From NCBI GenBank assembly GCA_030737835.1, contig CM060850.1, positions 2,631,788 to 2,695,787 on the forward strand: a DNA stretch of 64,000 nt, given 5' to 3'. Within the stretch, counting starts at the first letter, position 1; the number at the start of each line of letters is the position of its first letter. Origin of the DNA: Acorus gramineus (lineage: Eukaryota; Streptophyta; Magnoliopsida; Acorales; Acoraceae). Of the stretch, positions 9,768 to 55,612 are shown piece by piece. Position numbers and translations under genes: made by a program. The notes below the pieces were generated by a model. That model saw only the letters and a program-made list of their open reading frames with translations, did no database searches and was not told where the DNA came from.

Positions 9768-12700
9768 TTAATCAGAGATCTTGGACAATCTGCTAGATTT
9801 TGATGGAATTATTTTCTCTGACCCAAAAGTCCGAAGTTGAGTCAGAACTTCCGCGAAATCGGCTGGTGGGGGGCACGAGAACTTCACATCCTCTCCAGTG
9901 TTAGGATGCTTAAACCTGAATTACATCATCTGAAAGTCAGCATCCTCGCTGCATATAAAACAAACAGATAATGAACTTTGAAAAAATAAAATAAAGTGCA
10001 ATCCTTACCCCAGATAGAGAGCATGTAAGCAAGGCCTATCTATTTTCGATACCATGCTTGAAAGGAGGCCATGGCAACTCGGTCGAGTTCTGGGCCTCAG
10101 CATTGAGAGTGCCATGCTCTTTGTTCCTCCATAGATTTCATCTCCTAGAAGAGGGATTCCCAAGTGTTTTGCATGTACACGTATCTATTCCAGTATAACA
10201 TTGAGGCTTAATGCATAATCAAAAACCTAAACGAATGTGTTTAACGATAACAGGATCAAAATGATACACAATGGTTCTTGACATTGAACATTTCAACTCC
10301 TAATAGCTCAATCTGGAAGACTAGTAAACTTGTATGATCAAATAAAAAAAATGAAGTTTACACATATTTTAGAAGAAATTAACGATAAGAATGAAAATTT
10401 TAGTCGCTTGCACACGCTTCCAACAGGAGTTTCGCCTTGCATTAGAGAAAATTTTCCTAAGCAAACAACTCGTATTACCTGATGAGTACGGCCTGTTTCT
10501 AGCCTCCACTCCACTAGTGCAGAGCCACCACCGGCAAGAATCTCTATAACTTTGTACCTGTGATAATTTGCAATACACATGGACCAATAAAATGACAGTG
10601 CATTCTAAAGACAAATAGCAAAACTAGTTCAAACTTTGGTGCCAGATAGAGAATTCTATAAAGCTTCTTCCACCATACATAATGCTAGAGCTGCATCAAT
10701 TATAGCACATAATCATTTTGAATTGTGTATGTTCAACAGATAGCTACCTTTTTAACGACATAAAATAAGACACCAAATTAAATATTGTATGATGATCAGT
10801 AAGGGGCTTCCATTGGCATGTGATATAGGAGTAGAATGTGATTTTGTCTTATCAATGATCCTGATCAGTATTCAAGTATGATATCTAGATCCACAAGGCA
10901 TGAAGTGAGAGAATACACTTTAGGACGTCTTTTTGGAGTTATTCACTTTAATTGGTTGGGTATTGGTCTCTTGTGGCCAACCCATTAAATAGGGCATTCT
11001 CTCATTGGAATCCAAAAGGGCTTTCTTTTGAAACATGTGAAAAGTTTAAAACTATACCCTCAACCAAGGTTCATCACATGCTTTGCACTTCAAGCAATGC
11101 TAAGCTTTTTAAGAGCAACCTGATAAGCATCATATTCCCTATGCACTGAAATCTTCACTCCATTTGTCCAGTTAACCCAAACAATTCACCATTACCCTAT
11201 TTAATTTTTCTGAAGGACTGGTTATCTATTCAAAGAAGGATTCTGAGGCTTAAAGAGTTGTGCGTCATGCTTATTTCATGTCCAAAATAACGAATAGATT
11301 ACAGGAGACATCGATATCAAAATTGCGAATTATTGAAATCACGAGCTATATAAGCAATAATTGGAAAATGGGATTTGAAGTTCTTTGACTGATCATGTAA
11401 GTTATGGTAAAAATAACAATAAGAAACATGGTCGAGTTACTAAAACAAGCATCATGTACTCCCACAAACATGGGTATAGCTGAGTCAGAAAACAGTGGGT
11501 CAAGGACCATAAATCACCTACTAGCAGCTTGACGAGCCAGCCTACTGGCATTTGAATCAGAGACTGCAGCCATTCGAATTCTATTATTGGAATCACGAGC
11601 TATTGGGATATTGATCCGTCCAGAACTTGGGGAGGGGACTCCAATGGTAAGGCTAATGTACACTCTATGAATTGTGTGCAGCTTGAACTGTTCAGATAAA
11701 TGGGCATGAGAATCTTCATCCTGTATGAAATGAAACATCAGATCTTAATTTTTGCATCAACTCTGTTCTTCTCTAATGTACCCTTTGTTCCTCTTTCTGA
11801 AAGCAATTATTTTTATATGCATTTATTCTTCGTTTTGATTGCCTAATCAATATGCTCAAACTATAAAAAAACTCAGAAACTAACTAAAACTTCGCAAGAA
11901 ACAGTCACACCAATATCATGAATTTATCTGTGATGCCTACATCTACCCCAATGCATACACAGAAACACCCTGCTTACTGAAAACCATCAAGAACTGACAA
12001 ACAAAGCATCACTGAAAACAACATACACACTTATTATAAAGCCAAGAAACTCATAAACCATTCAAGCAATTACGATTATCACCGCCGCTCGATATTAAAA
12101 AAACGCACCTTCGCAACAACGAGCAATCCGCTCGTGCCTTTGTCCAACCTATGCACAATGCCAGGGCGCACGCATCCTCCTGCCGCGGCCGCCCCCTCAA
12201 CAGCGATGGCATTGCAATCGAATTCATCATCGGAACCATCATCCAATTCCAAAGACGCAGCGACCGCCGGAAGTCTACAGTGATTCAGAATCCCATTCAC
12301 GAGCGTCCCGTTCGGATTCCCCGGGGCGGGATGAACCACCTGGAATCCGTCACGAGATTCAGATTGACCAACAAAAACAACAATCCATTGAAATCAATAA
12401 CACTGCACCTACCATGTGAGCGGGCTTGTTCAACACGAGGACGTGATCGTCTTCGTAGACGATGTCCAACGGTATGTCCTCGGGTTCCGCGCTCAGCGGT
12501 CGCACCTCGGAAACCGTGCACTCGACGAAGTCGCCCTCTTTGACCGTCTGCGAGACCTTATCGACGGTCCGGCCGTTGATGGAGACCAGGCCGGATCGGA
12601 TGCTGGACTGGACCCGGGCGCGGCTGACGCCGGGGATCCTCGAGGAGATCCACGCGTCGAGCCTCGATTTCCGGGCGGCGGCGCCGCCGCCCGCCACCCT

Positions 12701-12916
12701 CTCCTCAAGCCGCTCTCCCGCGTGGTTGCCTCGGAAGGCGCGCCGCGGCTGCTCTTGCTCGGGGTGGTGGTGATGGTGGTCGTCCGACTCGACGGAGGCG
12801 GATGAAGAGGAACGGCGGAGGAGGATGTCGGAAACCCTAGAATTTTTAGGATTTCTTCGGAGGAGGCGAAGAGGTTGCGTCGGTGAAGCGTAGGTGGCGG
12901 GAAGGAGAGAAAGCAT
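9768..12916 (-). CDS. RNA pseudouridine synthase, RluD family, probably chloroplast
   Basis: The six exons in gene order are 12916-12413, 12339-12109, 11720-11518, 10557-10479, 10184-10009 and 9915-9768. All junctions are in frame, giving 446 aa. The product isomerises uridine to pseudouridine in RNA, most likely organellar rRNA. Residues 1 to about 75 are Ser/Arg-rich with few acids, consistent with a transit peptide. An S4 RNA-binding domain follows ([18 protein letters not shown] to about 140), then [21 protein letters not shown], the catalytic motif [15 protein letters not shown] (231-245, catalytic Asp234) and [20 protein letters not shown]. Length and order match Arabidopsis 'RNA pseudouridine synthase 2, chloroplastic'. 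Exon 1 is strongly GC-rich, with a His run at about residues 46-50, while the introns are AT-rich. Mitochondrial targeting remains possible. Confidence 0.94.
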
Positions 12917-13222
12917 CGCGACCGTACAATCCGGATGTCCGATTTTTTTTTTGGATTTGATGAGAAAATCGGTCGAACTGTTATCATCCGTTAATTATTA
13001 GGTTTATGTGCTACTCTCCCACTGAATATTGATGGTACTGATCAGAGCCCCGGACTCACAGAAGCAGTCCTGATTTGGATCCAAAATGTTGTTTGGACGG
13101 CTGGATAAAGATGTGTTTCATAAAATTTCTTTGTATCAGCACTATACAAGAAGGGCTGACATTACATGGCCAGTCTGTCGATTTGACATGTTGGATCGTG
13201 TCATGTTAGTTCATCAAATAGG

Positions 13223-13342
13223 GATAACGATTCCGTAAAACTCATATGTTGGTTTGATTGCAACAGGCCTGTGTCATGCCGACCTGACTCTAACAAAAGG
13301 GAGAAAAGGTAGATGAGGTGTGTGGTAGAAACTTGGGATCCG
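13223..13342. repeat. 120-bp direct repeat, left copy
   Basis: This is identical to 14109-14228 except for one base (GATTCC here, GGTTCC there). The pair flanks the foldback element between them. The outer flank of the right copy (tttggaaaagagctg) continues without resemblance to the inserted DNA. Confidence 0.9.
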
Positions 13343-14108
13343 AAATTGGTCGTCATTTCAGGTTTTGGGCGACCGGACTTGGTCGCCATTTCAGGTTTTG
13401 GGCGACAGTAATTGGTCGCAATTTCAGGCTTTGGGCGACTGTAATTGGTCGAACAGGGTTCAAAACTATATCTACCTATTTTTTGTAAACAAATAAATTT
13501 TTGGGTTTATCCATCATATTCTACATTTATTTTTTATCCAAACAACAGCTAAGGGGCCGAAAAAAATGTAAGTATGTATACTTTCAATTAATTCAAATTA
13601 TTAGACAAATATATATCATTTTTAAGCTTCGTTTGAATTCGTAGTTAAGAGGATTCTTGGTTTGAAAACAAAAAAAAACCTATCAGTTGATCCAAACACA
13701 TTATATATTTGGCTTTTGAAAATTAGTCCGTCACTTATGTAAAAAAAATTGTTCTTATATTCTACATTTAAGAATAATAATTGATTCTCCTTACATTACA
13801 ACTCAGACTTGGAGTGGTATGAAGGATTCAAGGAAGATATACGTCATGGGATTATGTTTCCAAGAAAAAAAATTATAAACTTTATTACAAATCCTGTTCG
13901 ACCAAGTTCGGTCGTCCGAAACCTGAAATGACGATCAAGTCCGGTCGCCCAAAATTTGAAATGGCGACCAAGTCCGGTCGTCCAAAACCTGAAGTGGCGA
14001 CCAAATCTGGTCGACCTGGCCGGATCGGTGGGAAAAGATAAAACACCGATTTTTTTTTTCCGATTGGTGGGGTAAGAAAAACCCTTGGTGGGGATAGCCG
14101 TGCCCTAG
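13342..14108. mobile_element. foldback element with 33-bp sub-repeats in its arms
   Basis: The left arm has three 33-bp units at 13342-13374, 13375-13407 and 13408-13440, followed by gtaattggtcgaacag. The right arm is the inverted equivalent: ctgttcgaccaagttc at 13894-13909, then units 13910-13942, 13943-13975 and 13976-14008. Each unit is itself partly palindromic (GGTCGCC ... GGGCGACC). The loop (13457-13893) is AT-rich with no reading frame, and about 100 bp of non-repeated tail follow the right arm. Inverted arms made of tandem units recall foldback (FB) elements. The class of transposase is unknown. Confidence 0.8.
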
Positions 14109-14228
14109 GATAACGGTTCCGTAAAACTCATATGTTGGTTTGATTGCAACAGGCCTGTGTCATGCCGACCTGACTCTAACAAAAGGGAGAAAAGGTAGAT
14201 GAGGTGTGTGGTAGAAACTTGGGATCCG
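14109..14228. repeat. 120-bp direct repeat, right copy
   Basis: This is the partner of 13223-13342, of equal length with one mismatch. Confidence 0.9.
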
Positions 14229-36826: not shown

Positions 36827-37781
36827 GGTTAAAGACATTTAAGTCCCTACAAACATGGGAAAACCCATATAAGTCCCTACTAAAATTAGGACAGACATAC
36901 GAGTCCCTGAAAACTCAGAAAAACCCAATTATCATCCCTGAGTTCAATTTCCATCCAAATTTAATGGAATATTCCTAGAATATTCCATCACATATAATTG
37001 TGTAGACATTGAAGTCCTTATAAACAGTCATAAAGACAAATTAGTCCCTGTAAAAGATAAAATTGCCCCTAAAAGACTTTTACATTAAATTGTGTATACA
37101 TTGTAGTCCCTATAAATAATCATAAAGACAAATTAGTCTCCGCAAAATACAAATTTGCCCTTAAAAGACTTTTACATGTAATTGAATAGACATTACAGTC
37201 CTTATAAACAATCGTAAAGACAAATTGGTTCCTCTAAAAGACAAAAATACCCTTGAAGTATTTTTACATTTAATTGTGCAGACATTGCAATTTAAAAATT
37301 AAATACCCTCTAAAAGACTGCAATTTCTACACAATTAAATGTAAAAATTCTTCAGGGGCATTTTTGTCTTTTACATGTATCAATTTGTGTTTACGATTAT
37401 TTATAAGGACTGTAATGTCTATCCAATTAAATATAAAAATCTTTCAGGGGCAATTTTGTCTTTTGCAAGGACTAATTTATCTTTATGATTTTTTATAGGG
37501 ACTGCAATGTGTACACAATTTAATGTAAAAGTCTTTCAAGGACAATTTTATCTTTTGCAGGGACTAATTTGTCTTTATGACTGTTTATAAGGACTTCAAT
37601 GTCTACACAATTATATGTGACAGAATATTCTGAGAATATTCCATTAAGTTTGGATGGAAATTTAACTCAGGGATGATAATTGGGTTTTTCTGAGTTTTCA
37701 GGGACTCGTACGTCTGTCCCAATTTTAGTAGGGATTTATATGGGTTTTTCCATGTTTGTAGGGACTTAGATGTCTTTAACC
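36827..37781. mobile_element. 955-bp foldback element with ~92-bp sub-repeats
   Basis: The whole element is one long inverted repeat, from GGTTAAAGACATTTAAGTCC to its complement ending CTTTAACC. Each arm of about 460 bp starts with a unique 165-bp part (gtccctacaaacatggg, ggaatattcctagaatattcc-type) and continues with three to four tandem units of about 92 bp. Unit anchors are aattgtgtagacattg, cataaagacaaattagtccc and aaaagacttttacat. The turn lies near 37300. No target duplication and no coding frame were recognised. Confidence 0.85.
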
Positions 37782-45012: not shown

Positions 45013-45530
45013 CCTTTCAAAAGTTAACTAAATCAATTTTAACCCCTATAAAATTGAAAAATCGTAACAAGTCTTCCGAAAGTACGTATGATTAACGACT
45101 TAGTTCCTATATTAAGTTGTTCCAATAAATACATTTAAATAAATCCTTACAAAATATAATAAATATGATTTAATCATTTTAATGATAACAATGTTCCAGT
45201 CTTTTCCTAAAAATTCACCAGCTATCTTATACTCATCAATGATTAAAAAAAAAGGAAAAAATTAATATAACTCTCTGAAAACTTATCCTTTCAAAAGTTA
45301 ACTAAATCAATTTTAACCCCTATAAAATTGAAAAATCGTAACAAGTCTTCCGAAAGTACGTATGATTAACGACTTAGTTCCTATATTAAGTTGTTCCAAT
45401 AAATACATTTAAATAAATCCTTACAAAATATAATAAATATGATTTAATCATTTTAATGATAACAATGTTCCAGTCTTTTCCTAAAAATTCACCAGCTATC
45501 TTATACTCATCAATGATTAAAAAAAAAAAT
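45013..45530. repeat. recent 274-bp tandem duplication
   Basis: The block starting cctttcaaaagttaactaaa at 45013 recurs at 45287. The copies appear identical through a core of about 235 bp, ending caatgattaaaaaaaaa. The lack of changes indicates a young duplication. No coding content. Confidence 0.9.
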
Positions 45531-46254
45531 TAATATAACTCCCTGAAAACTTATAAAAATAGAAAATGTCTTTGTAAAATCAGTAAATTCCTTTAAAGTC
45601 AACTACAAATCTTGTTAGTGTATTACAGTAATTTATTAAGTAAATTTTTAAAGAGTGTTACAGTAATTTATTATGTATAGTTATAGTCAACCACATATCT
45701 TATTAGTTTCGGGTTACAGTAAAAACTAAAATAAATATTATCTAATAAGATATAAACATAAATAGATTTTTGAATTTTATAATTTTTTTTATTTTCATAA
45801 GTTTTTAGAAAACTTCATAGATTTTAAAAAAAAAATAAGAGATGAGAATATTACGAGGCACGTGACCAATTTTTTAATTTTACATCAACTAAACAATAAT
45901 GTAGTTAACTTTTCAAAGAATTAGATATTTTTTCCTCCTCTTTTTTTTTTTTTTCTTTAATCGTTTAGAAACACGTCTATCTTTTTTAACTTCTGTAAAA
46001 GTAAAAGCAAGCCCTACCGAACTGTCTTTAAACATAGGATCCATGGAAAAGCACAGATGGATAATAAGAGGAAGACCATTATGAAATCCCTAAAGCAACC
46101 ACCAATCCATGAAGCTAATGGACACCAATGACCAATCCACATTCAATATCGGGTCGACCCAACCTGAGACGCGGACGTACTCTTCACTCAGATTACGCCG
46201 TACTTGCAAAACCAAACGCCACATAAAAATCGATCGAGAGAGAGAGAAAGAGAG
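45531..46254. promoter_or_regulatory. 5' flank of CPP1
   Basis: No gene in the AT-rich part. From about 46020 the composition rises in GC, and a GA-rich leader (46233-46254) leads to the ATG. No clear TATA box was seen. Confidence 0.4.
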
Positions 46255-55200: not shown

Positions 55201-55612
55201 GAAATTTTTAATTTTAAGTCCACGCAAACGTAACAATTTTGAGATCGATTCCTCCATTCTTCGTGTTTTTTTTAATCGTCTATTTGATTTTTAATCCCTC
55301 CGTCAAATGTCTATTCATACACCGTTAATTTGTAAAATGTGATTTTATTTTAAATCCCCGTAAATCATGCTATTTAGTAATCAGTTCCTGTAAAATATGA
55401 AGAAGGGAGAGACTAATCACTAAATAACATAATTTATCAGGATCTAAAAATAAATCACATTTCATAAATTAACGGTGTATAGACAGACGTTTGACGAAGG
55501 AATTAAAAACTAAATAGGTGGTTGAATATAGAGACTTGAAAAAAAATATGAAGAATTAAGGGATCGATTCTTAAATAAATATGTTTACAGAACTTAAAAA
55601 TAAAAATCCCTT
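55200..55612. mobile_element. foldback MITE upstream of the DUF630/632 gene
   Basis: The left half and the reversed right half match along about 200 bp: tttttaattttaagtc.., gagatcgattcctccattct, cgtctatttgatttttaatc, tacaccgttaatttgtaaaa and gctatttagtaatcagt each have an inverted partner between 55400 and 55612. About 413 bp in total, non-coding, turn near 55400. Confidence 0.75.

Follow-up and report, generated by a model that had tools for sequence, protein, structure and literature searches.

The Tm1 Mutator/Foldback elements of root-knot nematodes resemble the element described here in having composite inverted repeats with tandem units and non-autonomous copies, and in the parts of the Tm1 description drawn upon here target duplications of 8-10 bp, mostly 9 bp, accompany 45 of 53 complete elements (PMC3169594). 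Extracts from the literature on other systems describe DNA gained or altered near transposons. In Pack-TIRs, nearby DNA is copied into terminal-inverted-repeat elements at short microhomologies, as here, through gap filling and fork-stalling template switching (PMC8277862), and the scars of rice DNA transposons include fillers after excision (PMC4423477) and repair that is error-prone and adds mutations close to the site (PMC5023962). In alternative Ac transposition, flanking DNA around the element is duplicated in direct orientation, as it is at the present locus (PMC3744419, PMC4270019).

The locus lies in a stretch of 64,000 nucleotides of Acorus gramineus DNA (the window), in which an inverted-repeat element is situated between two direct repeats of about 120 bp. 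Two features together define the event at this locus: the left end of the element is missing, and the 9-bp target duplication next to the surviving right end is exactly where the repeat begins.

Structure of the window locus

The 120-bp direct repeat reported by an earlier note on this DNA is real: 13222-13342 and 14108-14228 agree over 121 nt at 99% identity and, with the target duplication included, the copies extend over 13219-13342 (124 nt) and 14106-14228 (123 nt), differing by one substitution and one indel (a 1-base gap). The left copy is distinguished by the extra G and by an A at 13230. The right flank matched the upstream sequence with E = 1.5e-59. The inverted arms, each described as holding three 33-bp tandem units, were likewise recovered (Table 1), with 13346-13460 being 84% complementary to 13890-14004. 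The element had also been placed exactly between the repeats, which is correct for the element as a whole, as it fills the space between them (13340/13343-14105), but not for the 33-bp units, because about 90 bp of terminal sequence separates the right units from the right repeat; the matching ~98 bp is absent on the left.

Table 1. Coordinates of features at the window locus
Feature	Position	Strand	Remark
Left target duplication TAGGGATAAC, start of left flank copy	13219..13228	+	One extra G relative to the right one
Left copy: target duplication plus right-flank DNA, in the place of the element's left terminus	13219..13342	+	
CCG common to flank and element, putative microhomology at the single new joint	13340..13342	+	
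Left-truncated foldback MULE-like element, without approximately positions 1-98 of the 882-bp intact copy L003	13343..14105	+	
Left arm, 3.3 units of 33 bp	13344..13451	+	Tandem repeats
Right arm, in inverted orientation to the left one, 3.5 units of 33 bp	13899..14013	+	
Right terminal sequence, intact, ending GGGGATAGCCGTGCCC	14014..14105	+	
Right target duplication TAGGATAAC, 9 bp	14106..14114	+	
Right copy: original right flank, presumed match to the template of the duplication	14106..14228	+	

Comparison with L003, an intact copy of 882 bp, revealed what the window copy has lost and gained. L003 aligns with the window copy from position 99 onward, and its first ~98 bp, the terminus GGGCGCGTCTATCCCC included, are missing from the window copy. 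At this position the window copy instead repeats the right target duplication together with ~114 bp of the right flank. This flank copy meets the element's left arm at CCG, a 3-bp match; matches of 3 bp or longer arose in 6% of random joins. The left half of the locus is best read as empty-site sequence and the right half as occupied-site sequence, and since the left junction reads like an empty site, a single new joint would be needed. The earlier view that the 120-bp duplication is not the product of a transposase and points to break repair or template switching is supported. The missing left end and the coincidence of the repeat's start with the target duplication were not visible to the earlier note.

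When 13340-14105 was folded as single-stranded DNA, the energy was -148.7 kcal/mol, against an average of -78.1 across 20 shuffled sequences (z -11.8). A foldback of this strength is compatible with slippage on one chromosome, whereby a fork would slip across the hairpin, from the left 9-bp target duplication to the right one, copy ~114 bp of flank and then return to the left arm by a second jump. A repeat that begins at the target duplication is also in keeping with such a route. However, slippage calls for two jumps, as opposed to one new joint if an empty allele was copied, and we consider it improbable.

An ORF on the minus strand at 12359-12916 carries an S4 domain and, from its sequence, is a putative pseudouridine synthase; the element lies ~420 bp upstream of its first ATG. 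Neighboring domains in the window are DUF630/632, CPP1-like and TOD1/MUCI70, a set that points to plant DNA. Other repeats in the window include a further foldback at 36827-37781 (463-nt arms, 91% complementary, with a 29-nt spacer and about three 92-bp tandem units per arm), a 274-bp tandem duplication at 45013-45554, of which 241 nt are identical, and a pair of 115-nt arms at 55271-55526 (79% complementary, 26-nt spacer) just upstream of a DUF630/632 ORF.

The element family

The search of the whole genome containing the window (398.6 Mb, 137 contigs), with the stretch at the window locus as query, scored 40 of 902 first-look candidates. Of the matches listed, the window locus alone covered the first 118 bases of the query and all others begin at 13340 or beyond, while the 120-bp flank block occurred twice, both times at the window locus. 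The block was ruled out as a component of the element on these grounds, as it was found only at the window locus and the other copies listed start downstream of it.

Many copies of the window element's family are present in the genome, full copies being ~880 bp. A terminal pattern with up to three mismatches was found at 372 forward and 354 reverse places, versus one and one for a reversed control. A left end was present for 82 of the 91 right ends examined (orientation checked), and an exact 9-bp target duplication flanks 59 of these two-ended copies, with 11 more having one mismatch. Eight of the 23 without an exact 9-bp duplication fit 8 bp exactly; given these counts, the hAT superfamily, which has an 8-bp target duplication, was ruled out. 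Seven of the 82 were off by more than one base in both the 9-bp and the 8-bp tests, among them L084 and L092, in which a duplication with a shifted boundary is visible by eye. In L002, L014 and L035 both ends are present with no recognisable target duplication, and these copies are possibly recombinants.

Elements of the family start with GGGC and have long terminal inverted repeats beginning with G, as in Mutator-like elements, and positions 1-220 of an intact copy match right ends inverted at ~79-80%. The window copy has the approximately three 33-bp units per arm of a foldback, repeats spaced at 33 bp occur in other family copies as well, and the family has the 9-bp (8-11) target duplication of Mutator-like elements. 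The long inverted repeats with tandem units and the 9-bp duplications therefore place the family with the Mutator-like foldback elements. The window element is a non-autonomous member of that group, ordinary in itself. In a search for an autonomous partner encoding a MULE transposase, none of 150 matches to PF10551 (150 of 1162 first-look candidates scored) lay between paired family ends in a by-eye comparison with about 100 of 262, 100 of 120 and 100 of 726 places; four lay ~2.5-5.5 kb outside the ends of short copies.

The earlier note had proposed a search for further copies and their flanks, and had named ordinary short target duplications as the result that would speak against insertion with a 120-bp duplication. 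This was the result obtained: there are many copies and their target duplications are short, so an insertion mechanism leaving 120 bp is removed from consideration. The same counts (59 of 82 exact at 9 bp and 11 more one base off) speak against a transposase making a 120-bp staggered cut in this family; we found no point in support of such an enzyme and regard its probability as negligible.

Copies lacking a left end and a second locus with a flank duplication

Nine of the 91 right ends had no left end at the expected distance, namely those of the window copy, L019, L024, L029, L038, L072, L073 (twice) and L114. As copies were mostly located through the right end, loss of the left end was easier to detect than loss of the right. 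In L024, a family element is inserted into another copy of its own family (a nested insertion).

L029 has the same architecture as the window copy. The first ~252 bp of this element are lost, and a 240-bp direct repeat is present at 98.3% identity (4 of 240 positions differ, one of them at the joint). The right copy of the repeat begins at the first base past the element, GATTTTATA, and the left copy opens with the identical 9 bp. At the 98.3% level of identity the L029 block was found at the L029 locus only, with part of it resembling a dispersed repeat at ~73-81%, and the other flank of L029 had one match in the genome, itself. The architecture was therefore present at 2 of 91 right ends. 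No third locus of this type was found among the ends scanned (177 and 188 ends, from overlapping patterns), the remaining matches being weak or offset ones, or ones that belong to tandem arrays or tandem duplications. The second locus suggests a recurring process. At both loci the lengths lost and gained are alike (~98 versus ~121 in the window, ~252 versus 240 in L029), which would fit a return near register, although two points cannot prove it.

L029 also bears on whether the scar might stem from an excision-linked repair or from a hybrid-element event between sister copies, either of which would leave the left target duplication with a footprint and the element with one end resected. The difference between TAGGGATAAC on the left and TAGGATAAC on the right of the window element could be a partial footprint, and fillers of 1-123 bp are given for rice excisions in the part of that report drawn upon here (PMC4423477). 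The target duplication of L029 is an exact 9 bp without a footprint, which counts against both events. In addition, a normal hybrid-element insertion would leave the element end intact, and this origin appears quite improbable.

Several other unusual copies were compared with the window copy. About 118 bp of the left end is lost from L072 with no copy of the flank, so end loss is not always paired with duplication, and ~8 bp is lost at the left end of L038. Neither L020/L021 nor L073 represents the same event: in L020/L021 (contig C9, ~14.264-14.266 Mb) the whole element and its flanks are tandemly duplicated with a period of ~1,317 bp and the target-duplication letters are identical, and L073 (405-1913, reverse strand) is a truncated copy inside a 753-bp tandem duplication, with its first ~519 bp absent and a junction match, TTCAT, within the 9-bp target duplication. 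At L118/L126, a two-ended element (L126, 950-2204) sits within a pre-existing 132-bp tandem array, and it looks likely that L056 is also in such an array, as its repeats are older and offset. An insertion of the window element into a pre-existing tandem duplication, with later deletion of its left end, would resemble the L118/L126 case. A pre-existing array does not hold for the window copy, where the block was found twice only, both at the one locus; moreover, that model leaves to chance the coincidence of repeat start and insertion site at both loci, and we regard it as extremely improbable.

Age of the insertions and of the duplications

A tree was built from 100 element bodies, after removal of 17 duplicate rows and of 11 loci that had no long match. 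The terminal branches of the window copy and L029 were the 4th and 5th shortest of the 100, and private substitutions were zero in both (over 766 and 629 bp). Both therefore look like young insertions, but youth is not peculiar to them, since 21-38 of the 100 copies were likewise without private substitutions. The duplications did not prove measurably younger than the insertions, since differences already exist between their flank copies (one substitution plus one indel over 123-124 nt in the window, 4 of 240 in L029). A hand estimate, softened by the branch lengths and not used as proof, weakly suggested that the flank copies are more diverged than the age of the element predicts. These differences may be allelic or may come from error-prone synthesis, which the consulted portions of two reports describe in repair (PMC5023962, PMC3039667). 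Slippage at the hairpin as a late event predicts flank copies more alike than the insertion age allows, which is not what these small numbers show.

The apparent youth of the insertions is also relevant to the main rival explanation, an assembly artefact in which the consensus follows an empty haplotype for ~120 bp beyond the insertion site and then switches to an occupied haplotype inside the element, giving identical letters with no such molecule. Young insertions may be heterozygous, the repeat copies differ by ~1-2%, as alleles might, and false heterotype duplications are a known class of error in the portion of the source used (PMC9516828). On the other hand, gaps between copies are among the marks of false duplication given there (PMC9516828), and no N is present at the joint in the window or L029. 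Contigs of up to 33 Mb suggest long reads able to span 1 kb, no second high-identity place for the flanks was found in the genome, and short matches at the joints are not required by an artefact, though chance could give them. On balance, we consider an artefact unlikely, though it is the most serious competitor.

Discussion

Overall, the locus was probably produced by a microhomology template switch in repair or replication that joined an empty and an occupied allele while the insertion was new. A Mutator-like foldback element would have inserted with a normal 9-bp target duplication and, with the insertion still young, a nascent or broken strand of the left flank would have been extended on an element-free template (the empty sister or homologue), copying the target duplication and ~114 bp of flank before it returned to the occupied chromosome at the CCG match, within the left arm of the element. 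The product would read, in order, left flank, target duplication, flank copy, truncated element, target duplication and flank. If the empty and occupied alleles differ only at the target duplication, the repeat is expected to begin exactly there, as it does at both loci. Three parts of this account are inferred: the empty allele as template, the trigger (either incomplete joining of the ends at insertion or a stall at the hairpin) and the young age of the insertion at the time. The points counted against a template switch are that there are two loci only, that both are from one assembly, that random joins give a match of 3 bp or longer in 6% of cases, that an assembler joining the two haplotypes would give identical letters, that 21-38 of 100 copies are likewise free of private substitutions, and that L072 lost its end without a duplication.

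We tentatively speculate that half-completed MULE insertions might share a recurrent fate: the end already joined would be kept and the other one resected, while the target end would be lengthened by copying an empty sister or homologue and would then rejoin near register. Failed second-end joining would in that case be marked by a direct repeat of 0.1-0.25 kb that is anchored at the target duplication. Read as a template switch, the odd 120-bp duplication is a repair scar whose one joint is explained. Scars of this type, if real, would allow incomplete or allele-templated transposon insertions to be counted directly from genome sequence; if they are assembly chimeras, they point to a kind of error at young insertions that could be mistaken for biology.

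Compared with Tm1, the unit length and sequence differ here and a transposase-bearing member was not found among the listed ends compared by eye, and the consulted parts of the Tm1 description contain no flank duplication coupled to the loss of an end (PMC3169594). In Pack-TIRs, as far as the extract describes them, both ends of the element are retained and the filler is internal to it, whereas here the copy replaces one end and starts at the target duplication (PMC8277862); captured DNA within a two-ended element was thus not what was found. Insertions in rice are generally precise in the portion of that report used here, and the window architecture was not encountered there (PMC4423477). In titles and the openings of abstracts, from which the literature was mostly judged, we recognised no report of the architecture of the window copy and L029. 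The duplications made by alternative Ac transposition keep intact ends and create new target duplications, whereas the window copy lost one end. The kind of element is itself known, and it is the architecture of the scar that is rare.
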